Both the position numbers and the translations under genes were made by a program. From positions 1 to 64,000 of the forward strand of contig NZ_JAKLWS010000026.1 in NCBI RefSeq assembly GCF_022012475.1: a stretch of DNA of 64,000 nucleotides, given 5' to 3'. The notes beneath the pieces were generated by a model, which worked only from the letters and a program-made list of their open reading frames with translations, was not told the origin of the DNA and searched no databases. This stretch comes from Rhodohalobacter sulfatireducens (GTDB lineage Bacteria > Bacteroidota > Rhodothermia > Balneolales > Balneolaceae). Every line of letters begins with the position of its first letter. Position 1 is the first letter of the stretch. Below, one piece after another: positions 6,234 to 36,399 of the stretch.

Positions 6234-6264
6234 AGCTATATATAAAGTTTAGCTTAGAATTTTT

Positions 6265-9465: not shown

Positions 9466-9865
9466 GCGGTTTTTTGAATCGCCTAAAATGTTTTGGTTAA
9501 TGTCCTACGGCAATTATTACTTACTTCAAGCCTTTATTCATACCTACGTGGGCAATTTAGTATATGGGAAAACCCATTTCAACCCAATTGTAAAATTTTT
9601 AAAAAACGCCCTGTTTCGACCTTAACAGCGTTCCAAAAATGTTATAGAAAATAAGAATTTGTAGTTTATTTAAAAAAAATAACTTTTTAAAGAATTATGC
9701 CTAAAAATATTACCTCATTTTGGACCATTGGTATAATTAAAATACTCCAAAATATTAAAAAAATATGCGTAGGTGAATTATCTCATTCTTGTTTAGATAT
9801 GAGCCCTTTTACACTTTTTTAAGAATCTGTCGAAGGAGGCTTTAATCGTTCAAATCCTTTAAAAA

Positions 9866-10705
9866 TTAATCGCTGCAGCTCCCACTTGGATAAGATATTC
9901 GTTTACTTGTAACACCAATAACATACCCGGTCCCTTGTTCAACATTGGAAATTCCTTCGGGCAAAGCTATTAAATTACGGTCAATAGAAGGGAAGTCTAC
10001 CCAATCTTCTCCGGCACGAGCCACATATAGTTCACAATCAAAAATATCTACAGTTTCAAGGTCTTCAGTGGCCTGTGCAATTCGATTTGGTGCTATTGGG
10101 ATATAGTAACCGGCCGCAGTTGAGATGGTATCAGCAATAATTGGGATCGATTGGTTTAATGTAAACCCGGCTACATTGTATCTTATTTTAAACCGGATGG
10201 ATGCATCCGCCAGGTTATCAATCCCCTCAATAACTAATCGACCTTTATCACCAGGTACAGCAGGTGGATAATAAACCGGGTCTTTAAATGTATCCGGAAT
10301 TTCCACAGTCACACTGCTCATTGCACCATCAGAACGTTCAGCGGTTATCCGGTAAGTACTTCTTGGTTCAATATTCTGTTCGGTCCAGAAATTATATGCA
10401 TATAAATTTTCTGAATACTGAAATAGAGAATCATTAAGTACACTGGTTTCTCCATTCTCAAGATTTTCGAGTGTAATCGTTCCGTCAATGCCTTTGCCGG
10501 TTGTATCAGTCTCCTCCTGAAGATGGATAACCCGAATCCATTGCCTATCCGCAGATGAATCCAGATAACCGGCAATGGAGTATATGAATCGGTCATTCTC
10601 TTTTACTGGGTTTAAAGATTCATCACAGCCTGCAAAACTGAGTAAAACTAACATTGCCAATGGAATTAATAAGTATGATTTTCTCAAGTGATTAATCGAT
10701 TTCAT
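9866..10705 (-). CDS. DUF4249-like outer-membrane lipoprotein
   Basis: 279 residues with a lipoprotein signal peptide (hydrophobic run at residues 10-25, Cys 27 in FAGC). The mature part looks like the DUF4249 family: an early Ig-like strand set (IYSIAGYLDSSADRQWIRV), then a 'NGETSVLND'-type turn and a second beta region. The family normally follows a TonB-dependent receptor in Bacteroidota, as here, where only one base separates it from the receptor stop. It probably works as the surface partner of that receptor. Ligand unknown. Confidence 0.75.
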   Translation of the reverse strand: MKSINHLRKSYLLIPLAMLVLLSFAGCDESLNPVKENDRFIYSIAGYLDSSADRQWIRVIHLQEETDTTGKGIDGTITLENLENGETSVLNDSLFQYSENLYAYNFWTEQNIEPRSTYRITAERSDGAMSSVTVEIPDTFKDPVYYPPAVPGDKGRLVIEGIDNLADASIRFKIRYNVAGFTLNQSIPIIADTISTAAGYYIPIAPNRIAQATEDLETVDIFDCELYVARAGEDWVDFPSIDRNLIALPEGISNVEQGTGYVIGVTSKRISYPSGSCSD

Positions 10706-10706
10706 C

Positions 10707-13007: not shown

Positions 13008-13089
13008 TACTGAATAGTCTATACTTCTGTGTTAAATTGATTTACACTGTGTCTAATAATAAAAAAGCATAGTCCTATTATTAATAAAA

Positions 13090-13125
13090 GAAAAAGCCAC
13101 TCCTGTAAAACAGAAGTGGCTTTTC
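13090..13125 (-). terminator. hairpin terminator after the SusCD2 operon
   Basis: Stem formed by gccact...agtggc with an inner gtaaaac loop region (13095-13119), flanked by an A-run to the left and T-run to the right. Located 40 bases after the stop of the Calx-beta-like gene and upstream of the next operon. Confidence 0.75.
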
Positions 13126-13163
13126 TTACATAAACAATCTCTTATTAAACAGAAATTTGTTTT

Positions 13164-14000
13164 TTAAGGCTGAGGAGTCGCAACGATCTGGTAACCGAAA
13201 CCTGCAACACCACAACATTGGAAGGTAACATCTAATGTCAATTCACCAGCCGTATCATTGTAATTACCGGATACGTCAAGTATGATTGTTTCGAATCCTT
13301 CTTCGTGAGCATTTGGTGCACCTAATACATCTCCACCCGCTGTTACATTAAAAGCATAAGCAACATCTACTCCAAAGAGAGCACCGGCGATATTACTGGT
13401 TCTAAACAAGTAAGGTGCACCTCCTACAACGATTGGTGAATCAGGTTGTGTAATTTCAAATGTCCCTGAAAAAGGACCGAAATCACCGGTTGCTTCATAG
13501 GTATACGTTCCTGTCGGAACAGCTCCCAACCCGTTGATCACGAACGTTCTTTCAAGTCCAATATCACCCCGCCCTAGAGAGAGTGTTTCACCACTCTCGG
13601 TTGTAGCACTTTCAAGTGTAAAGGTTAAGTTTCTGGAAGTTCCAAGAGCTGCTTGAATCGGAAAATCCAAAGTAACGGACCCATTATCCAGACTTGTTGA
13701 TTCAGGATCATGTTCTATGGTTACCGTTCCAGGTGTTCCAGAGCTGAAAACGTAATCATCACCTTCAACCGCATCACCGCTTATGGTATATTCTACGGTT
13801 ACATTTTCATATTGCGTTTGGCCCAACTCAAAAACAACTTCAAGTGATCCTCCGGCAACAACGTCTTGTCCTTCAGTACCTATCGTAACAAACGCAGGCA
13901 CAGCCCCATCCTCGTAGGAGATGGGTTCATTCACGCTTTCGCATCCCAGTAACAGTAGTGTGAGAACTGAGACCGAAAATATAATTTTTATAATTTTCAT
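13164..14000 (-). CDS. Calx-beta-like lipoprotein of SusCD2 operon
   Basis: 278 residues with a lipoprotein signal peptide (Cys 20 in LLGC). Residues ~35-150 look like a Calx-beta type beta-sandwich: TVEYTISGDAVEGDDYVF with the downstream GTVTIEHDPES and LTFTLESA strands. A second beta-rich domain follows, with two adjacent cysteines near the C-terminus (FQCCGVAG). It is the third gene of the susC2-susD2 operon, 25 bases after SusD. Surface lipoproteins in this position usually help bind the imported ligand; that role is inferred from position only. Confidence 0.75.
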   Translation of the reverse strand: MKIIKIIFSVSVLTLLLLGCESVNEPISYEDGAVPAFVTIGTEGQDVVAGGSLEVVFELGQTQYENVTVEYTISGDAVEGDDYVFSSGTPGTVTIEHDPESTSLDNGSVTLDFPIQAALGTSRNLTFTLESATTESGETLSLGRGDIGLERTFVINGLGAVPTGTYTYEATGDFGPFSGTFEITQPDSPIVVGGAPYLFRTSNIAGALFGVDVAYAFNVTAGGDVLGAPNAHEEGFETIILDVSGNYNDTAGELTLDVTFQCCGVAGFGYQIVATPQP

Positions 14001-14025
14001 AATTTTATATCTCTAAATTTTTCAA

Positions 14026-15525
14026 TTAGTTCTCAAACCACATTGGCGTATCCAGGATCGGATCCTGTGGTGTATTTGGGTTTGATGACACTTCATCCGG
14101 CGGATATGGGAATCGTCGGATTACATCACCTAAATCTGCATTCTGTGCAACCGTCAGTTCCGGGAACTTCGTTCGTTTCCACTGGCTCCAGTTCTCGGGA
14201 GCGCGGTCCCATACCTCAATATACTGTTGAGTGTGTATGGCTTCTAATGCCTGATCTTCACTGGAAAAACCTGCCGGTAAATTCGCAATGTAGGCATCCA
14301 TTTCAGCGGTTGAGATTCCATCAGATTGTCCGGCCCGTGAATTTAAAACCGTGTAAGGTGCTAAGAATTCAAGAGATGCTCGTACACCTTGGATATAGGC
14401 ATCGTGAGCACCCGCTAAATCGCCGGTTGTAGCCAAAAACTCGGCTTCATAAAATAGAACTTCTGATGCGGTGAGCATACGATTTGGCCAGTCTCTTCGA
14501 ATGATGTTCTGGCTAATCATCGCTGTGCCATCACCGTAATTGGAAACGCCGGCTTCCTGCCCTTCATACTCGGTACTTTCAAAAGTTTCACCACCGTCAA
14601 AGGTTGGGAAAGCGAAATATGTCTCTCTTCTGGGGTCTTGCAGTTCATTCATCATATCTACAAGTGTTTCACCTGCAAAAATGAAGTTATTACCGTTTCC
14701 GGCATCTGTAAAACCACCAAAGAGGTTATTTAAAGTCCACACGTTATTCGCATTGTCATCACTGTCAAAAAACGGAACTGCAGCTTCGTCAGCATTTGTA
14801 CGAATCAGTTCTGCATTGTTCAGTAATGCACTAATTTCGCTATCAACAGATGGATCCTGGTTACGGAGAAACATATATGTCCGTAATTTCAGTGAGTTGG
14901 CAAACTTTGTCCATTGTATCATATCTCCGCCGTAGATCAAGTCACCATCACCCACGGAAGCCTCACCAGGCTGGATCTGTCCCAAAGCTTCATCAAGCAA
15001 AGTAATGACACCCCGCAAGACTGTTTCCTGATCGTCAAATTCAGGTTCAGGAAACTCATCAGGATCGAAAGCCTGATTGAATGGTATATCTTCCCACATC
15101 ATGGTTAATGAAAAGAAAAGATAGGCTTGTACGATCTTTGCTTGTGCAGCCACGTTTGGCCTGTTAGGTTCTTGATTTTCAGCCGCCTGGATCATCAATT
15201 GCAGATTCCTGCTGCTGGTACCATACCAGTTTCCCCAGGTATTTCCAGTTGAAAATGGACTAATGGTATATCTGTCGGGTCTTATAAAAACTCCTGTAGA
15301 ACCATTAGGCGCCCACGCATTGATAAAGAATGCGTTTGATGGCATAATCTCCATTGCCCTGTTAGAAGCAATGTTTGCCAATACTGTTGGGAACAACAGG
15401 TCTGGCGATACAGATGTTGCGGCGTTCGGATCGGTATTGATATCCAAATAATCATCGCAACTTGTCAGCGCAAATATTAGCGCCGTCAGTAAAATTAACT
15501 TTTTCGATATTTTCATAATTATCAA
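14026..15525 (-). CDS. SusD-like (SusD/RagB superfamily) lipoprotein
   Basis: 499 residues, close in style to the SusD-like_2 subgroup. The signal peptide ends with LTSC (Cys 23 from the first ATG; the ATG at 15516 fits the signal peptide better). The mature start, DDYLDINTDPNAAT, is diagnostic of the family. Helical repeats follow (for example AQAKIVQAYLFFSLTMMWEDIPF). It is expected to sit on the cell surface and cap the SusC2 channel. The gene lies 11 bases after SusC2. Ligand unknown. Confidence 0.93.
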   Translation of the reverse strand: MIIMKISKKLILLTALIFALTSCDDYLDINTDPNAATSVSPDLLFPTVLANIASNRAMEIMPSNAFFINAWAPNGSTGVFIRPDRYTISPFSTGNTWGNWYGTSSRNLQLMIQAAENQEPNRPNVAAQAKIVQAYLFFSLTMMWEDIPFNQAFDPDEFPEPEFDDQETVLRGVITLLDEALGQIQPGEASVGDGDLIYGGDMIQWTKFANSLKLRTYMFLRNQDPSVDSEISALLNNAELIRTNADEAAVPFFDSDDNANNVWTLNNLFGGFTDAGNGNNFIFAGETLVDMMNELQDPRRETYFAFPTFDGGETFESTEYEGQEAGVSNYGDGTAMISQNIIRRDWPNRMLTASEVLFYEAEFLATTGDLAGAHDAYIQGVRASLEFLAPYTVLNSRAGQSDGISTAEMDAYIANLPAGFSSEDQALEAIHTQQYIEVWDRAPENWSQWKRTKFPELTVAQNADLGDVIRRFPYPPDEVSSNPNTPQDPILDTPMWFEN

Positions 15526-15536
15526 AATTTCTTGGA

Positions 15537-18500
15537 TTAAAATCTCAATTGAATGTTAGCGCCATAAGATCTGGTAGAAGGCAATACATTCCACTCAATT
15601 CCCTGCCCGTTTGAAGCAGATCCAAAAAGACCTGTCTCGGGGTCGATATGTGGTACCTCACTATAGAGTAAAAACAGGTTTCTGCCTTCAACGCCTACAG
15701 TCAGACTGCTCAAAGGAGTGTTTTCAATCCATCTTCTTGGCAATTCATATTCAACTTTCACCTCTCTAAGTTTCACATAAGTAGAGCTGAATGTATTTCC
15801 TTCATGGACGTTTGCGCTTGCATAATTATTCCAGAAAGATTCAACATCCTGAACGGGAGTCGTGTTTTGACTGTAGCTTCCGTCAGCATTTTCAACCAAG
15901 CCGTCGATTATAAATGTGCCGCCCCGGTTTTCTAATGTTTCTTCGGCTACACCAGCTCTTCTGAGTGATCCAACAGTTTGTGAGAAAAGAACTCCTCCCT
16001 GCCGGTAATCCAAAAGGAAACTAAAATTCAATCCTTTGTAGTTGAACTGATTATTTAAGCTGAGCCTGTAATCAGGATCAATTTTACCCAGTCGTGTTTC
16101 GCCACCGGTTCGAATCAGCCCTGTATCAGGGTTGATGATCAATTCTCCGGTATCTTCATCACGTAAAAAGCCTGGTCCATACAGACCTAAAGGCTTACCG
16201 GGCTCTGCACGTACCTGTAATCCGTTAAAAGCACTTTGAATCACAATTTCATCTACACCGGGTGCTAAAGATTCAACGACATTTTGGTTTGTCGTGAAGT
16301 TCACAGTAGCAACATGGTTAAATGTTGAAGTTCGGATTGGATTGAGATTTACAGACAACTCAATACCTTTATTTGAAACTTCACCAATATTTGTTCTCAG
16401 TGCGCCAAAACCAGTTGTTTCTGGAGTAGGAATAGATATGATTTGATCTTCAGTTCTCACATCGTAGTAAGTGAAGTCGAAACCAAATCTTCCGTCAAAG
16501 AATTGTAACTCGGCTCCTACCTCGAAAGATTTTTGAAGCTGTGGCTTCAAGTCTTGAGGTGGCAGTGTTCCGGTTGCATTAAACCCGGTTCTTCCGCCAA
16601 ATGGGAAATTCTGACCCGTTCCATACTGCCCGAAAATACTCGATACCGGGAAGTACCTGAAGTCTAACTGATAAGGAGCTTCATCACTACCTACCTGAGC
16701 ATAATTAGCTCGTAGCTTACCATAAGAGAGTATATTACCTGCAACATCAAATGCTTCGGTAAACACAAAACTCGTATTTATAGATGGGTAGAAAAACGAA
16801 TTATTATCTTCCGGAAGTGTTGAAGACCAGTCGTTTCTGCCTGTAGCGTTTAAGAACAAGTAGTTCTTGTAACCAAACGTTACGTCTGCAAATACACCCA
16901 GTAACCTTCGTTGACTGTAATAGTTTGAAGGGTTATTAGAAGATGCATTCGCAAAGTTCAGGAGACCCGGAACATCAAGTGTAGATGCAGTATTTCTCAA
17001 AACACTTTGCTCACGTGTGTTCAGGTTATATCCGACAACACCTTGAAATGAAATGTCTTCATTGATGTCTCGAACAATTTCCGCTAAAAGGTCAACATTA
17101 ATCTGCTCTTCCTGGATAATATCGAGTGAAAAGTCACCGTCATCACGTCCCAGGGTTCCGACAGAATTTTGTCGTTGTCTATCCTCTGTATAATAGTCTA
17201 ATCCAGCCCTGGCCGTAAGAGTAAGCCAGTCTAATGGAGAGTATCGAGCCTGAGCATTTCCAAAAACACGCTGAATTGTATTTTCGAATGGGTTTTCATT
17301 TACAATCCAGTACGGGTTATTCGTCTGAGAAGAAAGTGCTCGCTGAGTTCCGTCTTCGTTTTTGTAATTCTTTAAATCTGTAAGATTTGTTGTTCGCGGT
17401 AAAGTATTGATCAACGATGTAAGTACATTCGGATCATTACCACCGGCAACAGCTCTACCCGTTGTGGAAAGGTCGGTATATGTACCTGATAATCTTACCT
17501 GGAAATTTTCCGTCATATTTCTGCCGGTATTCACAGTAATGGCTGTTCTGTCTAATGTATTATTAGGAACAATTCCACTTTGATCTGTTCGCGTAACAGC
17601 TACTCGCAAATCAGAGATTTCATCGGCATTTGAAAAAGATATACTGTTTATGGCAGTCAAATTACTGTTATAAAAATCTTTAACATTATCCGGATATGCC
17701 TGAAGTGTAACTTCTTCGCCACGAATATTTTCAACTTGCTGTCCTGCAATTGGAGGACCCCAACCATTCAAGCTATTGCTATCGTATTTACCATTATCTC
17801 CCTGCGCGTATTCATTTTGGAAATCTGGTAATCTTAAAGGTGAGGAAGTTCGTACACTTGAATTAACAGTTACAGACTGGCCAGTTTGAGCTGAACCTCT
17901 TTTCGTAGTAATAAGAATTACACCGTCTTTTGCACGCTGTCCATAAAGAGCAGCTGAGGCAGCGCCTTTCAAAACTGTTACACTTTCAATATCGTCAGCA
18001 TTCAAGTCTCCACCCCTGTTACCAACATCAACAGCGCCTGTCAATCGGTCCTGGCTAGTATTTCCAACAATATTAGAGTTTGAAATGGGTACACCATCAA
18101 CAACAAAAAGTGGTTGATTACTGCCTGAAAGAGAAGAAATTCCACGAATGGTGATACGAGTAGAAGCACCAATATTACCAGACTGACTTTGAACTTCTAC
18201 GCCCGGTACTTTTCCGGCTAAAGCATCAACAAAGTTGGTTTCTCGAGCTTTCGTAACCTCTTCGCCGGTCACGGTAGAAATTGAGTAAGCAAGAGCTCTT
18301 TCCTGCCTTTCAATCTGCTGACCCGTAACAACGATTTCGTCAAGACCAACAAGATCTTGTCTGAGTTCGATATCCACCGTGTTATTTCCGGCAGTAATAT
18401 TAAGAGTTAGTTCTTGACGTACATACCCAATGAACGACGCAGTCACATTATACTCGCCTGTGGGTATCGATTGAATGCTATACACACCATCAAGATTGGT

Positions 18501-18674
18501 TACTGCACCACGATCTATATCTGGTATATAAATGTTAACTCCCGGTAATTCTTCACCGGTTCTTGAATCTGTTACTGTACCAGTTAATGTACCTGTCTGA
18601 GCATACGCTGAAGACATGAGGAACAAACTGAGTAACAATGAAAATAGTAGCCTATAATTCATATGAGACCTCAT
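15537..18674 (-). CDS. SusC/RagA-family TonB-dependent outer-membrane transporter
   Basis: A 1045-residue SusC protein. Signal peptide to about residue 25 (AYAQ), carboxypeptidase-regulatory-like domain (~28-110, TGEELPGVNIYIPD), SusC box DEIVVTG near 120, plug domain (~135-255, including QPLFVVDGVPI and the VTVLKGAASAALYG segment) and a long barrel ending in IQLRF. It heads the operon susC2-susD2-Calx-beta lipoprotein. The first ten residues and the leader match susC1, yet the two proteins differ clearly in the barrel, so they probably bind different ligands. Confidence 0.95.
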   Translation of the reverse strand: MRSHMNYRLLFSLLLSLFLMSSAYAQTGTLTGTVTDSRTGEELPGVNIYIPDIDRGAVTNLDGVYSIQSIPTGEYNVTASFIGYVRQELTLNITAGNNTVDIELRQDLVGLDEIVVTGQQIERQERALAYSISTVTGEEVTKARETNFVDALAGKVPGVEVQSQSGNIGASTRITIRGISSLSGSNQPLFVVDGVPISNSNIVGNTSQDRLTGAVDVGNRGGDLNADDIESVTVLKGAASAALYGQRAKDGVILITTKRGSAQTGQSVTVNSSVRTSSPLRLPDFQNEYAQGDNGKYDSNSLNGWGPPIAGQQVENIRGEEVTLQAYPDNVKDFYNSNLTAINSISFSNADEISDLRVAVTRTDQSGIVPNNTLDRTAITVNTGRNMTENFQVRLSGTYTDLSTTGRAVAGGNDPNVLTSLINTLPRTTNLTDLKNYKNEDGTQRALSSQTNNPYWIVNENPFENTIQRVFGNAQARYSPLDWLTLTARAGLDYYTEDRQRQNSVGTLGRDDGDFSLDIIQEEQINVDLLAEIVRDINEDISFQGVVGYNLNTREQSVLRNTASTLDVPGLLNFANASSNNPSNYYSQRRLLGVFADVTFGYKNYLFLNATGRNDWSSTLPEDNNSFFYPSINTSFVFTEAFDVAGNILSYGKLRANYAQVGSDEAPYQLDFRYFPVSSIFGQYGTGQNFPFGGRTGFNATGTLPPQDLKPQLQKSFEVGAELQFFDGRFGFDFTYYDVRTEDQIISIPTPETTGFGALRTNIGEVSNKGIELSVNLNPIRTSTFNHVATVNFTTNQNVVESLAPGVDEIVIQSAFNGLQVRAEPGKPLGLYGPGFLRDEDTGELIINPDTGLIRTGGETRLGKIDPDYRLSLNNQFNYKGLNFSFLLDYRQGGVLFSQTVGSLRRAGVAEETLENRGGTFIIDGLVENADGSYSQNTTPVQDVESFWNNYASANVHEGNTFSSTYVKLREVKVEYELPRRWIENTPLSSLTVGVEGRNLFLLYSEVPHIDPETGLFGSASNGQGIEWNVLPSTRSYGANIQLRF

Positions 18675-21435: not shown

Positions 21436-22614
21436 CTAATCTCCGTTTTGTACAATTCTCGGAATAGTTGTTGGAAGGCGAACCAATACTTCGTAATTCA
21501 AATTATTTGTCATCTCTCCGAACGAAGCAACCGTAATTTCATCGTCTCCCTGTTGCCCAATCAATACGACTTCATCTCCTTTTTTGGCTCCGTCAATATG
21601 TGTGACATTAATCGTGATCATATTCATATTTACCAATCCAACAACTCCGGCACGTGTTCCGTGAATCAGTACATACCCGGCATTGGTAAGGTTCCGCCCA
21701 AATCCATGAGTATAGCCAATAGGAACCGTCGCAATTTTCATTCTCCGTCCGGCCAGGTAAACATTTCCGTAACCGATAAAATCACCACTGTTTACCCATT
21801 TTATATTCATAATTTCACTCTTCCATCTTAGCACACGTTTCAGAGGGTCTTCTCCCTGATCCAGGTCCAGTGATTTCATGATCTGCATGTATGTTTCCCG
21901 GCTGGGCCAAAAACCGTATTGCGCAATTCCGATCCGTGCCATATCGTAATGCATTTTCGGCCGCGAAAGATATGCGGCAGAGCTCGCAGCATGAACCGGC
22001 GGCAGTTCATCTAAAATATCTTTGGCAAGGTTTAAAGCCTTTTGCAGTTGATTATTCTGATTTTCAATACGGTAATAATTCGCCACACTCTCAGCACCTG
22101 CATAATGTGTGCAAATTCCCTCAACTTTAATCTCTTTCTTATTTTTTTGAACGGTTTCAAACACCTGTTTCCAGGTGGGCTCTTCAAATCCGGTCCTGTT
22201 CATTCCTGTTTCTATCTGGAGATGTACCCGTGCCCTTTTTTGCATCTTTTTTGCACTCTCTATGGCAGCTTCCAGGCGATCCAGTTCAAAAATATAGAAC
22301 TCCACGTCATTTTCTATCGCCCATTCAAGCTCATCATCCCGAATCATCCCCATAATCATGATATCTGTCTCGGGATGAGTTTGCGTTTTTTTAGCGATCA
22401 GTGCTTCATTCGCGCTAAAAACGGAAAAATGATTCATCCCTGATGACTCTGCAATAGGCAAAAAATTTGTGATACCATGCCCATATGCATTTCCCTTTAT
22501 CACGGAAGAGAGTTTTACGGAGTTTTTAGCACGGTGCTTTAAAAACTGAATATTATTTTTGAGGGCGCCCTCGTCCAGTTCAATTACCGAAGGCTGGAGA
22601 AAAGATGATTTCAT
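21436..22614 (-). CDS. alr: alanine racemase
   Basis: 392 residues. It converts L- and D-alanine using pyridoxal phosphate for cell-wall synthesis. The PLP lysine K40 lies in VIKGNAYGHG, and the second catalytic base is Y282 in the GYGNVY motif of the C-terminal beta domain. Both domains are complete and of normal length. It is the last gene of the minus-strand cluster that starts with a Na+ symporter at 27690, though 94 bases separate it from the amidohydrolase. Alanine racemases often stand near murF; its placement here is unusual and suggests either a catabolic or a dual role. Confidence 0.93.
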   Translation of the reverse strand: MKSSFLQPSVIELDEGALKNNIQFLKHRAKNSVKLSSVIKGNAYGHGITNFLPIAESSGMNHFSVFSANEALIAKKTQTHPETDIMIMGMIRDDELEWAIENDVEFYIFELDRLEAAIESAKKMQKRARVHLQIETGMNRTGFEEPTWKQVFETVQKNKKEIKVEGICTHYAGAESVANYYRIENQNNQLQKALNLAKDILDELPPVHAASSAAYLSRPKMHYDMARIGIAQYGFWPSRETYMQIMKSLDLDQGEDPLKRVLRWKSEIMNIKWVNSGDFIGYGNVYLAGRRMKIATVPIGYTHGFGRNLTNAGYVLIHGTRAGVVGLVNMNMITINVTHIDGAKKGDEVVLIGQQGDDEITVASFGEMTNNLNYEVLVRLPTTIPRIVQNGD

Positions 22615-22708
22615 ACAAAAAAACTACAGAACTTAAATATGTTGCAAGAAAATGGCCCCGGGGAGCAAACTTGAAGTTCAATCACAACTTGGGACTGAAC
22701 CCAAAAAA

Positions 22709-23881
22709 CTACATTGATTGGTAATAGTCAACTATTCCTCTGAACATTGCAATTCCGGCAGGAATCAGGTTATCATTAAAATCAAATTTTTCCGAATGAA
22801 GCGGAGGTTTATCCTGACCGGCTCCCAAACCAAAAATTGCGATTGGAAACTGTTGCCCAAACTCTCCAAAATCCTCACTCCAGGGAAACGGTGCATTCAA
22901 TTCCTTGTAATCTAATCCCTGTTTTTCAGAAACATTCATGATCACTTCTGCACCCTCTTCACTATTAATAGTTGCTCGAAATGGTTCTACCTTCTTCAGT
23001 GAAACTTGCCCGGTAAAATCTTGCTTTACTTTATCGATGATTTCATAAACCAGCTTTACACCGGTATCCAGTTTTTCATCCGATGCAGAACGAATTGTAA
23101 ATCCTATCCGTGCCTTCCCCGGACTAATGCCAAACGCCCGTTCTCCCATTTTGATGTAGGTGCAGACAATTTTGTTGCTTTCATTTTCGTCCCGGAACGC
23201 TTTCATCCTTGCATCAATTTCTGTGATGAGCTGTGCAACCGTTACTGATGGATTCAGACCTCTTTCAGGGTAAGCCGCATGGCTAAACGCTCCTTTTACT
23301 GAGATTTCAAGCCCGACTGAACCGGCCGCAAACGGTCCCGATTTACAGATGATTCTGTTTTCAGCAAAACCGGACAGATTGTGCAATGCAAATCCATGGT
23401 CAATGTTCAATTCTTTAAATCGATCATCTTCTAGCACCCTGGCCGCTCCTTCGCCCGTTTCCTCCGATGGTTGAAAGAGCAAATACACGTCGATCTCTTT
23501 CGGTCGATTCTTGTGTAATTCTTTTGCCAAACCAATGAGAATTGTCATATGCCCGTCATGTCCGCACCCGTGCATAGCACCTTTCAGGCTAGATTGATAG
23601 GGCAGGTTTGTTTCTTCCTCCACAGAGATGGCGTCCAACTCAGCACGGAAAAGCAATCTTTTTTCCGGATTTTTCGATGAGCATCGAAATGTTGCTAATA
23701 CACCGTGTCCGCCCAGACCAGTAAGAATTTCATCAGCACCGCACTTTTCAAGTTCACCTTTGATCCGTTTAGCAGTCTCCTTCTCTTCACCGGAAGTTTC
23801 CGGATGTTTATGAAGGTCTTTCCTTAGTTGAATGAGGTCTGATAACATCAGGTAGTTACTTAATTTTGCAGGTATAAGCAC
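22709..23881 (-). CDS. M20-family metallo-amidohydrolase
   Basis: 390 residues, cytoplasmic. The M20 aminoacylase/hippurate hydrolase family removes N-acyl groups from amino acids or splits peptides. Metal-site features: D83 in AELDAI, and the HGCGHDGH motif at 104-111 with bridging Cys 106. A second-half histidine set is present (GFALHN, SHAAYPERG dimerisation region). The proper start may be the ATG at 23848, since the first 11 residues look non-conserved. It lies 12 bases after the M23-like gene, within the amino acid cluster. The acyl group and amino acid are unknown. Confidence 0.9.
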   Translation of the reverse strand: MLIPAKLSNYLMLSDLIQLRKDLHKHPETSGEEKETAKRIKGELEKCGADEILTGLGGHGVLATFRCSSKNPEKRLLFRAELDAISVEEETNLPYQSSLKGAMHGCGHDGHMTILIGLAKELHKNRPKEIDVYLLFQPSEETGEGAARVLEDDRFKELNIDHGFALHNLSGFAENRIICKSGPFAAGSVGLEISVKGAFSHAAYPERGLNPSVTVAQLITEIDARMKAFRDENESNKIVCTYIKMGERAFGISPGKARIGFTIRSASDEKLDTGVKLVYEIIDKVKQDFTGQVSLKKVEPFRATINSEEGAEVIMNVSEKQGLDYKELNAPFPWSEDFGEFGQQFPIAIFGLGAGQDKPPLHSEKFDFNDNLIPAGIAMFRGIVDYYQSM

Positions 23882-23893
23882 TTAATTTTAAAC

Positions 23894-24538
23894 CTAATAA
23901 ATATCCCCAAGTAAAATTCTTGGATCGGGATATCTTTCACGCGCCGGAATAAGGTTTTCTTTCGCTACAACACCAGGCATATCCGGTTCTCCGGGATCTT
24001 CAATGCAAAGTTGGTAATGTAGATGCGTGGGCCAGTTTCCATTTTCTGATTCTTCCCCCAGCCATCCAACCACCTCACCTTTCTTTTTCTTCTCCCCATT
24101 AATGTGCAGTTCCAGGCTTTCTTTTGATAGATGACCATAAAGAGCATAAATCTCCTGGCCTTCAACCATATGTTTCAGTATCAGTGTACCTCCGTAATTG
24201 CCCTCATCATTTTGAAATGTTGAATAGGCAACCACTCCGTCAAGAACTGCATAGACGGGCTCACCGGCTTTTGCCCAAATATCAATTCCCATGTGAATAT
24301 TTCTTCCATCGGCATATCGCGGTGCACTATACATAACTCCTCTTTTTTCCAGGTAACCGCCAACAGCCCAACCTCCGGATTTTACAAATGCGGTTATGGA
24401 ATCGCGATCGAATTCAGAGGTGAGATTGAACTCTTCATAGTCAACCGGAAGATCCATAACCGGATGTGTATCCTTTTTTTTGACCGCCGATTTTATAATG
24501 CTTTCAAAATCGAATGAGGGGAGTTCCGAAAGTTCCAT
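23894..24538 (-). CDS. signal-less M23 (LytM-like) metallopeptidase domain protein
   Basis: 214 residues with an intact LytM zinc site: H82 and D86 in HMGID, H136 in YGHLS, and H172/H174 in HLHYQ. M23 enzymes usually cut peptidoglycan cross-bridges outside the cell, but this protein has no signal peptide or membrane anchor and starts directly with MELSELPSFDFES. From memory, similar cytoplasmic M23 domains occur fused to PLP-dependent aminotransferases, which fits the racemase and amidohydrolase neighbours. It starts 6 bases after the racemase stop. It may process a small amino acid derivative instead of cell wall. Confidence 0.8.
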   Translation of the reverse strand: MELSELPSFDFESIIKSAVKKKDTHPVMDLPVDYEEFNLTSEFDRDSITAFVKSGGWAVGGYLEKRGVMYSAPRYADGRNIHMGIDIWAKAGEPVYAVLDGVVAYSTFQNDEGNYGGTLILKHMVEGQEIYALYGHLSKESLELHINGEKKKKGEVVGWLGEESENGNWPTHLHYQLCIEDPGEPDMPGVVAKENLIPARERYPDPRILLGDIY

Positions 24539-24544
24539 ATCCTT

Positions 24545-25618
24545 TCAATCTGCTACTTTTTTCTCGATATAATCAGAACTCATTAAACCGAGAGCTCCCA
24601 TATATTTTAATTTGAACCGAATCATATCGCCAACTTTATAACCTTTTGGGTTGGAGCCAACATCCAGAACAAGCATATCAGAACTGGCATCTGTTATGGT
24701 AATGTTATCGTCCACCGGGATTAAATAATTCGGTTGGATATCCAAAACTCCAATATCGATAATCGCCCTGTAGGATGTTTTTCCATAATCTTCCTCTGAA
24801 ATTTCAGTGGTTTCTCCCTGTGGATTCACACCCAGCTCGCCCATCGGTACTTTAGGTTTTTCAGAAAGCTCGATGATTTGTGTAAAAAGTTCCAAAACAC
24901 GATCGCTCATTCCTTCAATCACACCATCCGAAAACAGGTTTTTGCCGAAAAACAGGGCTTCACCCACACGGAAATGGTTAATGCCTGTAGGCAATTGATT
25001 TTTTAAAAGCAGTGGAATAGTCACCGTTGTTCCACCGGATACTAATGGAATTTCTTTCTTAAATCGCAGCTCAATGATCTGTTTATAAAGTGCAAGCTGT
25101 ATCAATTTATCACCATCGGGCATTACCCCGTGCAAGCAGTTGAGATTTGTACCAAGCCCAACGACCTCAATTCCCGGTAGCCGAAAAACTTTTTCGTAAA
25201 AATTGATCAGGTCATCCCGCATCACACCTTCACGCAGGTCGCCCATCTCAATCATGATAATAACCTTATGGACCTTATTTTGGCGTTCTGCCTCCTCCGA
25301 AAGATCATGAAGGGTTGCCAGTTCCGTATTGAGGCTGATATCTGCGTATTTCACCACATCGCGAACAATATCTTTTGGTGGGGGTTTGATGTAGATTGTA
25401 ACCGTGTCCGGATCAATCTCTTTTATCACTTTCAGGTTACTTACCCTGGAATCGTGAACCTCACCGACACCGAGATCAATAACCTCATTCAGAAATGCTT
25501 TGTTACCACAAAAAAGTTTTGTGGTGATTCCCCATTTAATACCATTTTTTTTGAACAGTTCATCCAGGAATTGAAAGTTATGCCGCAACTCCTCTCTGTA
25601 TAATTTTAAATAAGCCAT
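24545..25618 (-). CDS. alanine/ornithine racemase-family PLP enzyme
   Basis: 357 residues. This belongs to the ornithine racemase-like (Orr/YhfX-type) branch of the alanine-racemase N-terminal-domain family. The PLP lysine is K34 in GITTKLFCGN. The family features GLGTNLNCLHG near 178-188 and VSGGTTVTIPLL near 217-228 are present, and the final ~120 residues form the beta domain. The true substrate could be ornithine, lysine, alanine or another amino acid. It lies between the GNAT and M23 genes, so it probably acts on the imported amino acid. It is distinct from Alr downstream. Confidence 0.85.
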   Translation of the reverse strand: MAYLKLYREELRHNFQFLDELFKKNGIKWGITTKLFCGNKAFLNEVIDLGVGEVHDSRVSNLKVIKEIDPDTVTIYIKPPPKDIVRDVVKYADISLNTELATLHDLSEEAERQNKVHKVIIMIEMGDLREGVMRDDLINFYEKVFRLPGIEVVGLGTNLNCLHGVMPDGDKLIQLALYKQIIELRFKKEIPLVSGGTTVTIPLLLKNQLPTGINHFRVGEALFFGKNLFSDGVIEGMSDRVLELFTQIIELSEKPKVPMGELGVNPQGETTEISEEDYGKTSYRAIIDIGVLDIQPNYLIPVDDNITITDASSDMLVLDVGSNPKGYKVGDMIRFKLKYMGALGLMSSDYIEKKVAD

Positions 25619-25696
25619 ATCGGGTATTCAGGTTTCAGTATGCGTCGTTGGGGTATTCGTTGTTTATTACTTATTTAATGTGCCGATTATTGTTGC

Positions 25697-26146
25697 TTAT
25701 TTCTTTGCAGACCGTCTCATTTCCAAATACTTGTTTGTAAAACCCACCTTTTCATACAAATATTTCGCAGGATTGTTGGGTTCAACGTGCAGCGCGATAT
25801 CACCGGTTGTAGCTTCAATGATTCGATTCATAAGTTCCTTTCCTACTCCCTGTCCTCGGGTTTTTTCGTGAACCGCAATGTACACAAGAATATTCTCGGG
25901 AATATATTCACTCATATTGGTTTTATTAATGATTACTGCCCCCACTATTTCGTCCTCTTCGTGTGCAATGAGGATGAAACCATCCTGCCCGGGATTGTCA
26001 CCGTAAGCATACCCGATACATTTTAAAATAGCAGACTTTGTATCGCCATATTCATCTAAATGTTTATACAGAAAATCGGCTATTTGATCTCTCGAAAACC
26101 CGGTCGGGTTAGTCTCATCGGAATGGCTGATCTCATATTTAATCAT
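25697..26146 (-). CDS. GNAT-family N-acetyltransferase
   Basis: 149 residues. The acetyl-CoA site is visible as TRGQGVGKELM (residues ~99-109) after the strand ILVYIAVHE, and the C-terminal NNPAKYLYEKVGF motif is typical of amino acid/small-molecule GNATs. It is 20 bases downstream of the Na+ symporter gene and upstream of the racemase. Next to an M20 deacylase, it suggests N-acetylation and later deacetylation of an amino acid; that link is an inference from gene order. Confidence 0.88.
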   Translation of the reverse strand: MIKYEISHSDETNPTGFSRDQIADFLYKHLDEYGDTKSAILKCIGYAYGDNPGQDGFILIAHEEDEIVGAVIINKTNMSEYIPENILVYIAVHEKTRGQGVGKELMNRIIEATTGDIALHVEPNNPAKYLYEKVGFTNKYLEMRRSAKK

Positions 26147-26166
26147 TTCATTTCAAATTTTAAGTA

Positions 26167-27690
26167 TTATTCCTTCTTCAAATTCTCAGATTTCACTTTA
26201 TCAGGAAACAGGAGTGATACAGTTACAAATATTACAGCAGATGCTGAAATTCCAAACACATTCGGGTCCAATCCATAAGGTAAGGCAATTTCTATAAAAT
26301 CGATGGCAATATCATTCCAGAACGACAGACTGAATCCCTCCCAGCTAAGAACTGGATGACCCAATGTTAGATATACAGTAGTTGTACCGCCAATCAGCAT
26401 CGCAGAAATTGCGCCGGCACTACTGCTTCTCTCCCAATACAACGCTCCTATAATCGGTACAAATAGTCCTGAAACCATAAATGCATATGAATAGAGCATA
26501 AGGTTTAGAACACTCTGCATGGAACTTGCCAATAGGAGTGCTCCTGCTCCAATTATGAAGGTTGTTATTTGTGAAAACCGTAAAAACCTCGGACTTTCGT
26601 GATCAATCTTTTTGAAATAGCCGATGATATCAGAAACTACATTTCCGGATGATGCCATAAGGCAACTGTCTGCGGTGGATAGAATAGCTGAAAAATAGGC
26701 TGACATCATAATTCCCATCAGCCCAACAGGGAGTACAGTACGCAGCAGCATCGGCAAACCTGTTTCCGGATCAGTATCTGATATGTCGGCCGCACCAAGG
26801 TAATCAAACATACCCTGGGAAGCGGCAACCTTAGCAAAAAGCCCTAATAAAACACCCATAAAAGCCATTACCGGCCACTCAAAAAGCCCGGCAAGATACC
26901 AGGCCCGTTTTGCAGTTCTTTCATCCCGGCAGGCATAAATGCGTTGATAGAGTGTCATACCCACGAACCATATCGGGATGATTGTTGCCCCCCAGTAAAC
27001 AACCCTCTGCCAGGTTATATTTCCAAGGGTGAGTAATTGAGGATCAACAGCCGCTTGTATTTCACTCCAGCCGCCCACTGCATCATAGGAAACCGGAATC
27101 CCGATGAATATCAACCCGAGCATTAAAATAGTCCACTGTATCGTATCTGTATAAATAACAGCTTTCAGGCCACCCAGTACGGTGTAGAGAACTGCCACGG
27201 TTCCCATGATAATAAGAGCGGTTTGAAGATCGAGGTTAGCAAAAGTACCATTTGCGAGTTTCGCGCCGGCCAGGATTTGTGAACTTGTGAAACCGGCATA
27301 CCCAATGGCTGAAATAATTCCGGCTATCAGGGCTACCTTTGCATTAAAAAAATGCTTAAAGACTTCGGGAAAGGTATAGGCTTTATCAAATGCCCGGTTC
27401 CCTTTTACTTTTGGAATCAGTAGAACAGCCGCCATCCAGGCACCAATTAATCCTGTAAACAGCATCCAAGAACCGGCAAGTCCCATGGTAAAACCAAGTC
27501 CGCCAAGTCCGATGGAAAAACCACCACCAACATCAGTTGCTACAACGGAAAGCCCAATATGCAGACTGTTCATGTCTCTTCCGCCTACATAGTAGTCTTC
27601 TCCTCCCTTGTTTTGCCTGAAAAAGTAATATCCAAATCCAAGCAGTCCTACGATATATACTACAAACAGTGCGAGATCTATATAGTGCAT
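26167..27690 (-). CDS. sodium:solute symporter (SSS family)
   Basis: 507 residues with about 13 transmembrane helices. Early family signature: LGFGYYFFRQNKGGEDYYVGGRD, with the GGxDYYVGGRxM motif near residues 29-41, then IGLSVVATDVGGGFSIGLGG. It drives uptake of small solutes (amino acids, organic acids) with Na+. It is the first gene of the cluster and transcribes away from the histidine kinase at 28110. The substrate is not determined; downstream genes point to an amino acid or derivative. Confidence 0.92.
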   Translation of the reverse strand: MHYIDLALFVVYIVGLLGFGYYFFRQNKGGEDYYVGGRDMNSLHIGLSVVATDVGGGFSIGLGGLGFTMGLAGSWMLFTGLIGAWMAAVLLIPKVKGNRAFDKAYTFPEVFKHFFNAKVALIAGIISAIGYAGFTSSQILAGAKLANGTFANLDLQTALIIMGTVAVLYTVLGGLKAVIYTDTIQWTILMLGLIFIGIPVSYDAVGGWSEIQAAVDPQLLTLGNITWQRVVYWGATIIPIWFVGMTLYQRIYACRDERTAKRAWYLAGLFEWPVMAFMGVLLGLFAKVAASQGMFDYLGAADISDTDPETGLPMLLRTVLPVGLMGIMMSAYFSAILSTADSCLMASSGNVVSDIIGYFKKIDHESPRFLRFSQITTFIIGAGALLLASSMQSVLNLMLYSYAFMVSGLFVPIIGALYWERSSSAGAISAMLIGGTTTVYLTLGHPVLSWEGFSLSFWNDIAIDFIEIALPYGLDPNVFGISASAVIFVTVSLLFPDKVKSENLKKE

Positions 27691-28109: not shown

Positions 28110-29714
28110 ATGAAAAATAAGGACTACAATTTTATTTGGAGGCCCGTCTCAATAGACTTTCTTACCTCAAATTTTAAAATTTCAGATACCAGGCTGTATG
28201 GCCCAATAATTGTCTGGGTATTCATTATTGTTGCTTCCTTGTTAATTACAGCTAATCTAATGCAACAAGAATGGCTTACTCTAACTTCAGACAGGGTTGA
28301 GATCATCAATTTCTTCCTGTTGAATCCCGCTTTGATCATCGGGATGATTTTGCTGTTTTGGTTTGGTTTTGAGTGGGGGTTTATTCCCGTTTATCTCTGC
28401 ACATTTACCGTGGCATATATGTCAAACATCACTGTGCTGTGGGCTTCCCTGATCGGTATGTCGTTTATTTTTGGGATGGGATTTTTTGCATTGGCGTACC
28501 ACAGTATTCGAATTCCGTATACTCTGAGAAGTATTAAAAGTGTAGCTGCTTTTGTGGTAATCTCGTTCATTGCAGCACTTGCCAGCTCTATGGGATCTTT
28601 TATTTGGAGTTTCTTCCTTCAACTCTCGGCTCAAGATACACTGATTGTTTGGAAAAGCTGGTGGACCGGGATCTTTTTTCAATCTATTCTGATATTAGGC
28701 CCACTTCTATTCATACTGTCGCCTTGGGTTGAGAAGAAGAAAAGTCAACTTTTTGAGCTTCCGGAACAGAAAGACGTTTCCCCAAAATGGATTTATGGGT
28801 CTGTAGTCAGTGTGGCACTTACCCTGGCACTTTTTATATTCTCCGGGTATCTGCTTGGGCGGTCTACTGTTCGCGAAACCGTTGGCAGCAGCGACATGGT
28901 ACTGGTCACAGACATCATGGGGTCTCTCGAAGCGTTCGAGATCATTACCTGGACATCCATCGGGCTGATTCTTATTACCGGATTTGCCGCTATCTACCTT
29001 CTGCACAGTTGGAACGAAAATTTACGGGAGCAAGTCTCAGAACGAACCGCTGACCTTCTTGAAAGCCGTGAAGAGCTAAAAGTTTCACTCAAAGAGAAAG
29101 ATATCTTGTTTAAAGAGATTCAGCACCGTGTAAAAAATAATCTTGCACAGGTACACGGCATGCTTGAGCTGCAGGAGACAATGAGCGAAAACGAAAGTGT
29201 AGCGGATCTACTGAAGATCTCGAAATCCAGAATTCGTACAATGTCTCTCGCACATGAGGCCCTCTACAATAATGAAAACTTTTCGAAAATCAGCCTTAAA
29301 AATTATATCGAAAACATCGCTGAAGTCACCCATCGTTCATTCCATGATGGTAATAAAGTTGTGAATCTGAACTATGAAGTGGACGACCTCCACCTCGATA
29401 TGGCAAAGGCTATTCCACTCGGTTTGATGATTAGCGAAATCCTGATCAATGCACATAAGCATGCGTTTAACGAAACAAAAAATGGCAGCATCAAGATTTT
29501 ATCGAGCATAAAGGATCATTCAATGCAGCTAAACATTAGCGACAACGGCTCCGGCATCCCTGAAGATCTCGATCTGAAGAAAAGCAACTCGTTGGGTATG
29601 ACACTCGTCAACAGTTTTACAGATCAGTTAAAAGCCAACATGACGATCAACAGCAATAGTCATGGCACGCGTTTTGAATTTTCGATTCCGCTGGAGTCGA
29701 TCATCAGTGAGTAA
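28110..29714 (+). CDS. membrane histidine kinase (MASE1-like, HisKA_2 family)
   Basis: 534 residues. The first ~300 form a multi-helix membrane sensor resembling MASE1, with eight or so helices. A short coiled linker (302-330) leads to the HisKA_2-type dimer domain: the phospho-accepting H339 is in FKEIQHRVKNNL. The ATPase domain follows with the N-box (SEILINAHKHAF near 449-460), DNGSG (near 477-481) and a G2-like GTRFEFSIPL. No response regulator is adjacent, so it is an orphan kinase. Such kinases often feed PhyR-like or single-domain regulators elsewhere. The signal is unknown. Confidence 0.9.
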   Translation: MKNKDYNFIWRPVSIDFLTSNFKISDTRLYGPIIVWVFIIVASLLITANLMQQEWLTLTSDRVEIINFFLLNPALIIGMILLFWFGFEWGFIPVYLCTFTVAYMSNITVLWASLIGMSFIFGMGFFALAYHSIRIPYTLRSIKSVAAFVVISFIAALASSMGSFIWSFFLQLSAQDTLIVWKSWWTGIFFQSILILGPLLFILSPWVEKKKSQLFELPEQKDVSPKWIYGSVVSVALTLALFIFSGYLLGRSTVRETVGSSDMVLVTDIMGSLEAFEIITWTSIGLILITGFAAIYLLHSWNENLREQVSERTADLLESREELKVSLKEKDILFKEIQHRVKNNLAQVHGMLELQETMSENESVADLLKISKSRIRTMSLAHEALYNNENFSKISLKNYIENIAEVTHRSFHDGNKVVNLNYEVDDLHLDMAKAIPLGLMISEILINAHKHAFNETKNGSIKILSSIKDHSMQLNISDNGSGIPEDLDLKKSNSLGMTLVNSFTDQLKANMTINSNSHGTRFEFSIPLESIISE

Positions 29715-33516: not shown

Positions 33517-34992
33517 ATGGAAACCGGCACAATTATTCTCATTATTGTTGGCCTGTACCTTCTTATCTCCCTTCTCACAGGCGTACTGCCATCACTCAAA
33601 ATTTCGAAAAGTGTCAGCGGATATGTAGCAGGCGACCGCAGCATGAATGTGTTTATCCTCTATTTTGTGCTGGGTGCATCGATCTTTTCATCTTTCGCAT
33701 TTCTTGGTGGGCCCGGCTGGGCGTACTCCCGTGGCGCTGCTGCTTTTTACATCATCGCTTATGGCGTGATTGGCATTGTGCCGTTCTACTTTTTTGGCCC
33801 GCGAACCTGGCGTTTGGGAGAGAAATACGGATATGTAACTCAAGCGGAACTTTTGGCCGACCGGTTCGACAGCAAATTTATATCTGTAATGCTGGCGCTG
33901 CTCAGTGTCGTCGTTTTTATTCCCTACCTCACACTTCAAATGGTGGGCGCCGGGTATGTACTGAATGTAATCAGTGAAGGGATAATCCCCTATTGGCTTG
34001 GAGCAGGAGTTACTTATTTGGTTGTTCTGATATACGTTTATTTTAGTGGTGTGATGGGGGTTGGGTGGTCCAACGCCTTCCAGGGAATGTTCATGATGGT
34101 AATGGCTTGGGTACTGGGAATTTACCTGCCAAATACACTCTATGGTGGAATTGGTGAGATGTTTACAGCTATTATGGAGAGTGGAAAAACAGCTATGTTG
34201 GAAGCCCCGGGATTGGCAGCCGACGGCACTCCCTGGGATTGGTGGGGATACAGCTCAGCCGTTCTTGTCTCGGCTTTTGGTTTTTCCATGTGGCCTCATC
34301 TTTTCATGAGAAGCTACGCTGCAAAAAGTGTAAAATCATTGCGATTGAGTGTCGTTCTTTATCCCACATTTTTGATTTTTCTTGTCCCTATTCTGATGAT
34401 CGGTTTTTCTGCCATCGTTGCTTTTCCGGGAGTTGAAGAAGCAGACAGTATATTACCTTACATCCTTATGCAGCTTGATCTTCCGGCCATTGTGGTGGGG
34501 CTGTTTTGCGCCGGTGCATTGGCTGCATCGATGTCTTCCGGTGATGCGATTCTTCATTCAGCGGCATCCATTGGAATCCGGGATGGCATAAGTCAGTTAG
34601 TACGTCATCCATTGAGCGATAAAAAAGAGCGGCTACTCATTCAGCTATCTGTTGTTTTCATTGGTTTGATCGCATACCTGTTTGCTGTTGTGATTGATGT
34701 ATCAATCGTGGCCTTACTACTTGGATCTTATGGCGGTGTTGCTCAAATTTTCCCCATCGTCTTCGCCATGTTCTACTGGAGACGAGCTACGAAAGCCGGT
34801 GCTCTTGCCGGGCTGTTTGGAGGAATTTTGATAAATACTCTCTGCCTGATCTTTCCTGAAATCAAACCGTTCCCGATGCACGAAGGAATTTATGGGTTGA
34901 TTGTAAATGTGGTCCTCCTCGTAAGCGTGAGCCTGATGACCAGACCGGATGATCCCGAACGGGTTGAGAAGTTTGTGAATTCGGGTGGGTGA
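33517..34992 (+). CDS. sodium:solute symporter (SSS family, monocarboxylate-type)
   Basis: 491 residues, about 13 helices, with the SSS signature in the second half (near residues 325-345: GALAASMSSGDAILHSAAS). The N-terminal VAGDRSMNVFILYFVLGASIFSSFAFLGGPGWAYSRG fits SSS transporters for pantothenate or monocarboxylates. The immediately upstream DUF3311-like partner favours the organic acid subgroup. Exact substrate unknown. It is separate from the amino acid symporter at 27 kb. Confidence 0.9.
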   Translation: METGTIILIIVGLYLLISLLTGVLPSLKISKSVSGYVAGDRSMNVFILYFVLGASIFSSFAFLGGPGWAYSRGAAAFYIIAYGVIGIVPFYFFGPRTWRLGEKYGYVTQAELLADRFDSKFISVMLALLSVVVFIPYLTLQMVGAGYVLNVISEGIIPYWLGAGVTYLVVLIYVYFSGVMGVGWSNAFQGMFMMVMAWVLGIYLPNTLYGGIGEMFTAIMESGKTAMLEAPGLAADGTPWDWWGYSSAVLVSAFGFSMWPHLFMRSYAAKSVKSLRLSVVLYPTFLIFLVPILMIGFSAIVAFPGVEEADSILPYILMQLDLPAIVVGLFCAGALAASMSSGDAILHSAASIGIRDGISQLVRHPLSDKKERLLIQLSVVFIGLIAYLFAVVIDVSIVALLLGSYGGVAQIFPIVFAMFYWRRATKAGALAGLFGGILINTLCLIFPEIKPFPMHEGIYGLIVNVVLLVSVSLMTRPDDPERVEKFVNSGG

Positions 34993-35280: not shown

Positions 35281-36399
35281 TTATCCTAGTGCCCGCTCCA
35301 AGTCCTCAATAATATCATCGGGATGTTCGAGGCCAACACTGATACGGATCATATTTTCCGGCGATACCGAACCGTCCCCTTCACTGCTTCTTCGGTGCTC
35401 CCAGGTTGTTTCTACACCTCCAAGACTGGTTGCACGCTTGATCAACTTTGCCCGTCCAACAACTTTAATTGTATCATCATAATCGCCATCCACTAAGAAG
35501 GAGATCATGCCGCCAAAACCTTTCATCTGCTTTTTGGCGATTTCATGTCCTGTGTGAGATTCCAATCCCGGGTAAAACACATCCTCAACTTTTGGATGAT
35601 CTGCCAGGAAAGCAGCTACTTTTCCAGCATGCTCATTATGACCTCTCATTCTATACGAAAGCGTTCGGGTACTGCGACTCAGCAGCCAGCAGTCGTGGGG
35701 TGAGGGGACAGAGCCTCCCATTTTCTGAACGGTCAAAACACGCTCAAAAAAGTCATCCTCTTTCTTTGAAACTACAGCTCCGCCAAGAATATCACTGTGT
35801 CCGCCAAAATATTTAGAGGTAGAGTGCAGAACAAGGTCAACTCCCAATGCAAGCGGTAACTGGTTTACCGGTGTCGGCCAGGTATTATCAGCCACGGTTC
35901 GGATATTATTCGAATTTGCCAATTCGGCGACCGCTGCAATATCCGTTATACGCATCAACGGGTTTGAAGGGGTTTCAATCCAGATAATTTTCGTATTTGG
36001 TTTGATATGAGAATCGATATTATCCACGTCTGTCATATCGATAAAATCTGACTCCAACCCCCAGCGAGTCATAATTTTTTTGATCATCATTCGGTTTCCG
36101 GCATACACATCTTCGGGAATGATTACATGATCACCTGGATCGAGAGCTTGCAAAATGGCCGTTCCCGCGGCAATTCCGGAAGAGAAGGCTGCCGCAGTTT
36201 CACCACCTTCCAAAGCAGCAATCAAATGTTCAAACTGCTGCCGGTTCGGATTTTGCAGTCGGGTGTAATGCAGATCATCCGGGTTTCTGCCCTCCTCATC
36301 AATTTCAAAAATGGTACTTGGGGAGATGGGTGGAATAATAGCTTTTGAAGGATTCCCAATATCGAGTCCTGCGTGGATAGCCAGCGTTTCAAATTTCAT
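35281..36399 (-). CDS. cystathionine gamma-lyase/synthase family PLP enzyme
   Basis: 372 residues. The trans-sulfuration family makes or splits cystathionine, O-acetylhomoserine or methionine. The PLP lysine is K196 in HSTSKYFGGHSD, and the phosphate-binding YTRLQNP at 45-51 is present, as are the AFSSGIAAG turn (71-79) and the substrate-side region VETTWEHRRSS near 330. Which of lyase, synthase or sulfhydrylase it is cannot be fixed from sequence; features near the start and length favour the cystathionine gamma-lyase/synthase branch. It lies just after the redox operon and may belong to sulfur metabolism with it. Confidence 0.88.
   Translation of the reverse strand: MKFETLAIHAGLDIGNPSKAIIPPISPSTIFEIDEEGRNPDDLHYTRLQNPNRQQFEHLIAALEGGETAAAFSSGIAAGTAILQALDPGDHVIIPEDVYAGNRMMIKKIMTRWGLESDFIDMTDVDNIDSHIKPNTKIIWIETPSNPLMRITDIAAVAELANSNNIRTVADNTWPTPVNQLPLALGVDLVLHSTSKYFGGHSDILGGAVVSKKEDDFFERVLTVQKMGGSVPSPHDCWLLSRSTRTLSYRMRGHNEHAGKVAAFLADHPKVEDVFYPGLESHTGHEIAKKQMKGFGGMISFLVDGDYDDTIKVVGRAKLIKRATSLGGVETTWEHRRSSEGDGSVSPENMIRISVGLEHPDDIIEDLERALG

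Follow-up and report, generated by a model that had tools for sequence, protein, structure and literature searches.

A conserved six-gene operon of Balneolales built around a GNAT acetyltransferase and an Orr-like racemase, with a possible role in D-amino-acid metabolism

What might a sodium symporter, an acetyltransferase, two racemases, a deacylase and a peptidase-fold protein do together when they are encoded side by side? The question is raised by an operon at positions 21436-27690 of the window, that is, of the whole 64,000-nucleotide stretch analysed here (NZ_JAKLWS010000026.1, positions 1-64,000) from Rhodohalobacter sulfatireducens, order Balneolales. Six genes are transcribed on the minus strand from 27690 to 21436, in the order SSF symporter, GNAT N-acetyltransferase, Orr-like fold-III pyridoxal phosphate (PLP) racemase, M23 protein, M20 amidohydrolase and alanine racemase Alr (SSF-GNAT-ORR-M23-M20-ALR), with intergenic gaps, from 5′ to 3′, of 20, 78, 6, 12 and 94 base pairs (bp). 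An earlier note on this DNA had described six same-strand genes with short gaps and had given each a family; all six open reading frames (ORFs) were recovered at these positions, with gaps of 6-94 bp, and the family assignments of all six proteins were upheld by matches to Pfam, TIGR and NF models. The reading we put forward, at a probability of roughly 40%, is that the six genes form one conserved unit that handles a D- or L-amino acid, probably a basic one, by racemisation and acetylation.

The gene order, which the earlier note had suggested looking for in related genomes, is indeed conserved, and the genes remain grouped in a large part of Bacteroidota. The exact order was observed in 25 of the 38 Balneolales loci, representing about 20 genera, and nearly all the remaining loci are same-order subsets in which genes are missing, a contig ends or ORFs are hidden by the caller, with one further locus being rotated. 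ORF calling retained the longest ORF, at times an antisense one that masked the racemase, so that this count and the 71 of 74 reported below are lower bounds; at one locus (L044), the racemase was masked in the ORF calls, yet a direct search found it in place. Both the M23 gene and the racemase gene were detected in 26 Balneolales genomes, the racemase alone in one and neither in at least 19, a co-occurrence whose strength is exaggerated by its p value, the genomes being related. Other lineages carry the same genes in other arrangements, such as M23-GNAT-ORR-SSF-M20-ALR in Ignavibacteria (two loci), SSF-M20-GNAT-ORR-M23-ALR in Salinivirgaceae, M20-GNAT-ORR-M23-ALR in a metagenome-assembled genome (MAG) of Marinilabiliales, GNAT-ORR-SSF-M20-ALR in Melioribacteraceae (two loci) and SSF-GNAT-M20-ALR-ORR in four loci from one family of the phylum. 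Three Cyclobacteriaceae loci contain SSF-GNAT-ORR only, and one genome with this kind of locus has M23-M20-ALR at a separate site. Each of the six families is common on its own, as would be expected if unrelated housekeeping genes had become neighbours by chance; however, the order kept across Balneolales and the regrouping of the genes in other classes reject that explanation, to which we give next to no weight. Because of the same two observations, the six genes are regarded as a real operon and one functional unit, and the reassembly of one gene set in varied orders is stronger support for joint function than a kept order alone.

The constant part of this unit is the acetyltransferase together with the racemase, and not the M23 protein. 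A scan anchored on the GNAT gene returned 80 loci; among the 74 with a called GNAT, the racemase was present in 71, SSF in 35, M20 in 23, Alr in 20 and M23 in 10. The GNAT-racemase pair was also found without the other four genes in Cloacimonadota, in Persicobacter and in MAGs labelled archaeal, the last of which may be binning errors. Its neighbours in Cloacimonadota and the others (TPR, PP2C, MarC, RND efflux and unknown proteins) gave no consistent clue to the substrate, and a single-protein query of viral contigs found no viral copies. The pair may be described as a minimal module, with the other four genes as accessories gained and lost by lineage.

Which amino acid might this pair act upon? 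The GNAT protein (25697-26146, minus strand; PF13508, 9.5e-15, and PF00583) shows 41 invariant columns in an alignment of 24 sequences and scores 36 bits with the RimI model TIGR01575, under the cut-off of 86.4; in almost every relative, its gene adjoins that of the racemase. The racemase (24545-25618, minus strand; Ala_racemase_N, 6.8e-12) is about 41% identical to the ornithine racemase Orr of Acetoanaerobium and scores 319 bits with the Orr model NF040742, under its curated cut-off of 480, while the true Acetoanaerobium Orr scores 549.6; three scored members of the GNAT-partnered clade range from 291 to 326 bits. No solved relative was obtained by sequence search, even using a profile, and the AlphaFold 2 (AF2) model of the racemase, with a confidence (pLDDT) of 81 and some weak stretches, resembles D-threonine aldolase and several racemases, namely those for alanine, for lysine and of broad specificity. 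In a 61-row tree, which is midpoint-rooted and has some long branches that limit its finer reading, the GNAT-partnered racemases form a single clade (47 rows, support 100/100), and the other clade contains the true Orr from the Acetoanaerobium ora operon, the DUF1611-linked enzymes and those of Shinella and Salmonella. Residues K34, R129, C161, R217, D314 and Y339 are common to the GNAT-partnered racemases and their Orr-like relatives, but four diagnostic positions set the GNAT-partnered clade apart, where L is replaced by Y76, R by K78, A by D288 and H by M315. From its likeness by eye to the 'SMD' motif of Alr, M315 is inferred to lie near the substrate.

The identity to Orr could be taken as a sign of classical D-ornithine fermentation, but the score well below the cut-off and the separate clade speak against such a role, which we hold to be extremely improbable. 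The loci hold no ora genes, and for the source genome the role is refuted by the lack of an ornithine aminomutase. The neighbours of the Orr-like relatives are more informative: two adjoin D-ornithine aminomutase, one adjoins a gene whose product aligns over its full extent with the solved D-ornithine/D-lysine decarboxylase of Salmonella, and that of Shinella adjoins genes for a D-amino-acid dehydrogenase and 2-ketoarginine decarboxylase. Because of these neighbours, a basic amino acid of the ornithine, lysine or arginine type is our best guess for the substrate of the operon racemase. As a separate observation, the Orr-like racemase domain of two loci (L163 and L261) is part of a 595-amino-acid protein, encoded beside D-amino-acid dehydrogenase and RidA genes; together with the 2-ketoarginine decarboxylase of Shinella, this looks like an arginine racemase pathway. 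Decarboxylation of D-ornithine or D-lysine in the source genome was considered and rejected, with only remote matches (at most 27% identity) that resemble enzymes of the diaminopimelate decarboxylase type.

In what order, then, might acetylation and racemisation take place? The earlier note had arranged the enzymes as uptake, N-acetylation, racemisation and deacylation. Such a linear route, in which an alpha-N-acetylated amino acid is racemised as in the D-glutamate pathway of DgcN and DgcA, has the merit that a transporter, an acetyltransferase, a racemase and a deacylase are all encoded. Fold-III PLP racemases, however, form an aldimine with the free alpha-amine and cannot accept an amino acid that is acetylated at this position; acetylation would have to come after racemisation or target a side-chain amine. 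DgcA, being of the enolase type, has no need for a free alpha-amine, whereas both racemases of the operon are fold-III PLP enzymes; the proposed order fails in that form, and it would be workable only if the GNAT enzyme acetylated a side-chain amine. The DgcN route has been described as an irreversible racemisation (PMC12363236), and DgcN-like genes adjoin Orr-like racemases in other bacteria, both of which lend the linear route something; overall, it appears very doubtful. In six loci from Vibrio and roseobacter plasmids, a DUF1611 gene, DgcN-like in the one at L161, lies immediately 5′ of an Orr-like racemase gene, which seems to be a second, uncharacterised acetyltransferase-racemase pairing with an unrelated acetyltransferase. 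Since this unrelated family also pairs with Orr-like racemases, and since the DgcN route is described as irreversible racemisation, we prefer a scheme of racemisation first, followed by acetylation of one enantiomer that would pull the equilibrium, over side-chain acetylation.

In the scheme we favour, the SSF symporter would bring in the amino acid, either free or as a small acyl derivative, together with sodium. The Orr-like racemase would interconvert the enantiomers through the PLP aldimine, and the GNAT enzyme would acetylate one of the products, which would either trap an enantiomer in N-acetylated form or cap a side-chain amine. The M20 enzyme could strip the acyl group when the cell needs the amino acid in free form. 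Alr would convert D-alanine (D-Ala), possibly freed from small D-Ala-containing peptides by the M23 protein as a cytoplasmic hydrolase, and this side branch is the weakest step of the proposal. The unit could serve either the use of D-amino acids or the production of an N-acetylated D-amino acid. Several points weigh against this scheme as a whole. The association between M23 and the racemase is weak outside Balneolales (15 of 35 genomes, p 0.08). The separate clade and the diagnostic residues suggest that the specificity of the racemase may be shifted relative to true Orr. The operon encodes no dehydrogenase, decarboxylase or aminomutase that would serve as a dedicated catabolic enzyme for a subsequent step, and a genome search for ornithine aminomutase gives only a B12-domain match. 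In addition, GNAT and M20 together look like a futile cycle unless they are regulated.

The remaining enzymes are assigned with varying precision. The M20 protein (22709-23881, minus strand) scores 213 bits with TIGR01891, above the curated cut-off of 153.75, and has as its nearest solved relatives an indole-3-acetic acid-amino-acid hydrolase, YxeP and an N-alpha-acyl-glutamine aminoacylase, by which it is classed as an aminoacylase-type amidohydrolase acting on N-acyl-amino acids; its start codon is GTG, with an alternative in-frame start 11 codons further in. Alr, encoded by the last gene (21436-22614, minus strand), scores 278 bits with TIGR00492, above the curated cut-off of 168. Another alr on contig C138 scores 307 bits and is about 23% identical to it; because of this second gene, the cell probably has a source of D-Ala besides the operon Alr. 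The symporter, encoded by the first gene (26167-27690, minus strand; PF00474, 2.7e-52), has 206 of 507 positions conserved at 95% or more in 39 sequences and is closest to the PutP/PanF kind, under both cut-offs (159 bits with the PutP model TIGR02121, against 515.5). The same enzymes could also serve an osmolyte or nitrogen store, the racemase and GNAT making an N-acetylated (D-)amino acid, M20 releasing it and SSF recovering it. Acetylated diamino acids are known osmolytes, many carriers of the genes belong to marine or halophilic genera, and GNAT and the racemase alone are a stable unit; but the module also occurs in Cloacimonadota and further non-halophilic lineages, and no osmotic regulator is present in the operon, so that we judge such a store to be quite unlikely.

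The M23 protein (23894-24538, minus strand; PF01551, Peptidase_M23, 2.7e-16) was called unusual by the earlier note, being without a signal peptide and with its zinc site intact. Both features were borne out. The protein has 214 amino acids, and judged by hydropathy alone, it has no hydrophobic N-terminal stretch, with a maximum 15-residue hydropathy of 0.71 in the first 60 residues; the zinc-site residues H82 and D86 (HxxxD) and H172 and H174 (HxH), together with H136, are invariant in 37 sequences. We therefore predict a cytoplasmic protein with an intact zinc site, for which a catalytic role in the cytoplasm is likely. Its AF2 model (pLDDT 89) has a LytM fold, with Z of about 14 to DipM, lysostaphin and EnvC; EIIA-Glc domains also matched (Z 6 to 7), which was taken as no more than a common arrangement. 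Its presence here is unusual, as had been claimed, but not unique, the family being also the middle domain of APH-M23-aminotransferase fusions and common in stand-alone form in Bacteroidota. Its best model is the middle section of NF004799 (positions 410-572, 103.6 bits), compared with about 33 bits for exported M23 peptidases. In 394 genomes sampled from the phylum, the family occurs in two forms, one free-standing (about 220-260 amino acids) and one fused (about 1000-1200 amino acids), and matches at 34-36% identity, N-terminal extension included, were obtained from Sinorhizobium megaplasmids. The source genome encodes an APH-class III aminotransferase fusion without the M23 domain (contig C52:47693-49936; L255:9179-11440), and relatives have M23 between the APH and aminotransferase domains, a clean fused/split domain pair. 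Most of the free-standing M23 carriers examined are without the APH-aminotransferase fusion. One cytoplasmic M23 protein (L097:8505-9773) carries an in-frame insertion of a DUF559 nuclease-like domain just ahead of the zinc motif.

With such a protein, the operon might be thought to salvage muropeptides or other D-peptides, M23 cutting imported peptides that contain D-amino acids and M20, Alr and the racemase turning the residues into L-amino acids. The intact fold and zinc ligands of M23, the locus that holds M23-M20-ALR apart from the other three genes, and a second, divergent alr dedicated to the operon are consistent with this. However, peptides are not the usual cargo of SSF symporters, M23 is found in just 10 of the 74 GNAT-anchored loci, and the GNAT enzyme is left unexplained. 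We judge peptide salvage to be unlikely.

The operon is flanked by a convergent SDR-flavin reductase pair downstream and a divergent histidine kinase upstream. The kinase lies at 28110-29714 of the window, homologues were observed upstream in seven same-genus loci, and a regulatory link between the kinase and the operon is possible. Elsewhere in the window, another SSF-type symporter was identified by eye on the plus strand at 33517-34992, near a gene for a PLP enzyme of Cys/Met metabolism (35281-36399), and a run of TonB-dependent receptor and SusD-like pairs, also identified by eye, extends from 4455 to 18674 and resembles polysaccharide or protein uptake loci.

The earlier note knew of no described pathway with this gene set, and none was found in the literature searched, which was largely without subscription journals; no publication describing the six genes together and nothing relevant on an ornithine racemase with an acetyltransferase, or on fusions of M23 with a kinase and an aminotransferase, was obtained there. 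That the genes make up a distinct pathway is a tentative proposition, with the odds leaning clearly the other way. Equally tentative is a new acetylation-coupled racemisation of a basic amino acid across Bacteroidota, Ignavibacteria and Cloacimonadota, in which a PLP racemase clade would work exclusively with the GNAT that accompanies it and the substrate of a cytoplasmic LytM-fold enzyme would be a small metabolite, not the cell wall. D-amino acids are a large, slowly degraded marine nitrogen pool, and the proposal, if true, would give Bacteroidota an extra route for their use or storage. It would also provide an example of a LytM-fold enzyme that works in the cytoplasm, of relevance to the unexplained fusions of a kinase, M23 and an aminotransferase, and it offers a testable function for three generically annotated families (the alanine/ornithine racemase family, GNAT and cytoplasmic M23) that occur in hundreds of environmental genomes.

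How far does the operon resemble systems already described? The operon racemase shares with Orr (NF040742) the fold-III PLP family, the catalytic core residues and about 41% identity; it differs in its separate clade, its score under the family cut-off, its GNAT partner and K78, D288 and M315 in place of R, A and H, and Orr is adjoined by oraS/oraE (D-ornithine aminomutase), which this operon does not contain. The DgcN pathway, described as racemising acidic D-amino acids irreversibly (PMC12363236), likewise couples an acetyltransferase to an amino-acid racemase, while the operon has a GNAT instead of DUF1611, a PLP racemase and probably another substrate; a search of the six operon proteins found neither a DUF1611 acetyltransferase nor an enolase-type racemase among them. 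The operon M23 matches the middle domain of the PRK06148/NF004799 fusion of APH, M23 and class III aminotransferase, N-terminal extension included, but is free-standing, without the APH and aminotransferase domains in its chain. It has the LytM fold and the HxxxD and HxH motifs of M23/LytM zinc peptidases, whereas the export signal or anchor of the cell-wall members was not seen in it by hydropathy. In the Ong cluster for oxidised chitin (OngIT, OngB and OngC), a cytoplasmic pathway that has been likened to D-amino-acid catabolism (PMC9537276), an SSS-family importer, an N-deacetylase and a PLP enzyme also occur together, but OngB is akin to D-aminoacylases and not to M20, OngC is a deaminase, and the cluster is without GNAT or M23. 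The Salmonella D-ornithine/D-lysine decarboxylase locus has an Orr-like racemase beside amino-acid permeases and another fold-III PLP enzyme, with a decarboxylase in place of GNAT, M20 and Alr and without M23. As its enzymes differ from these parallels in family or partner, we rate the gene set as a new version of D-amino-acid metabolism.

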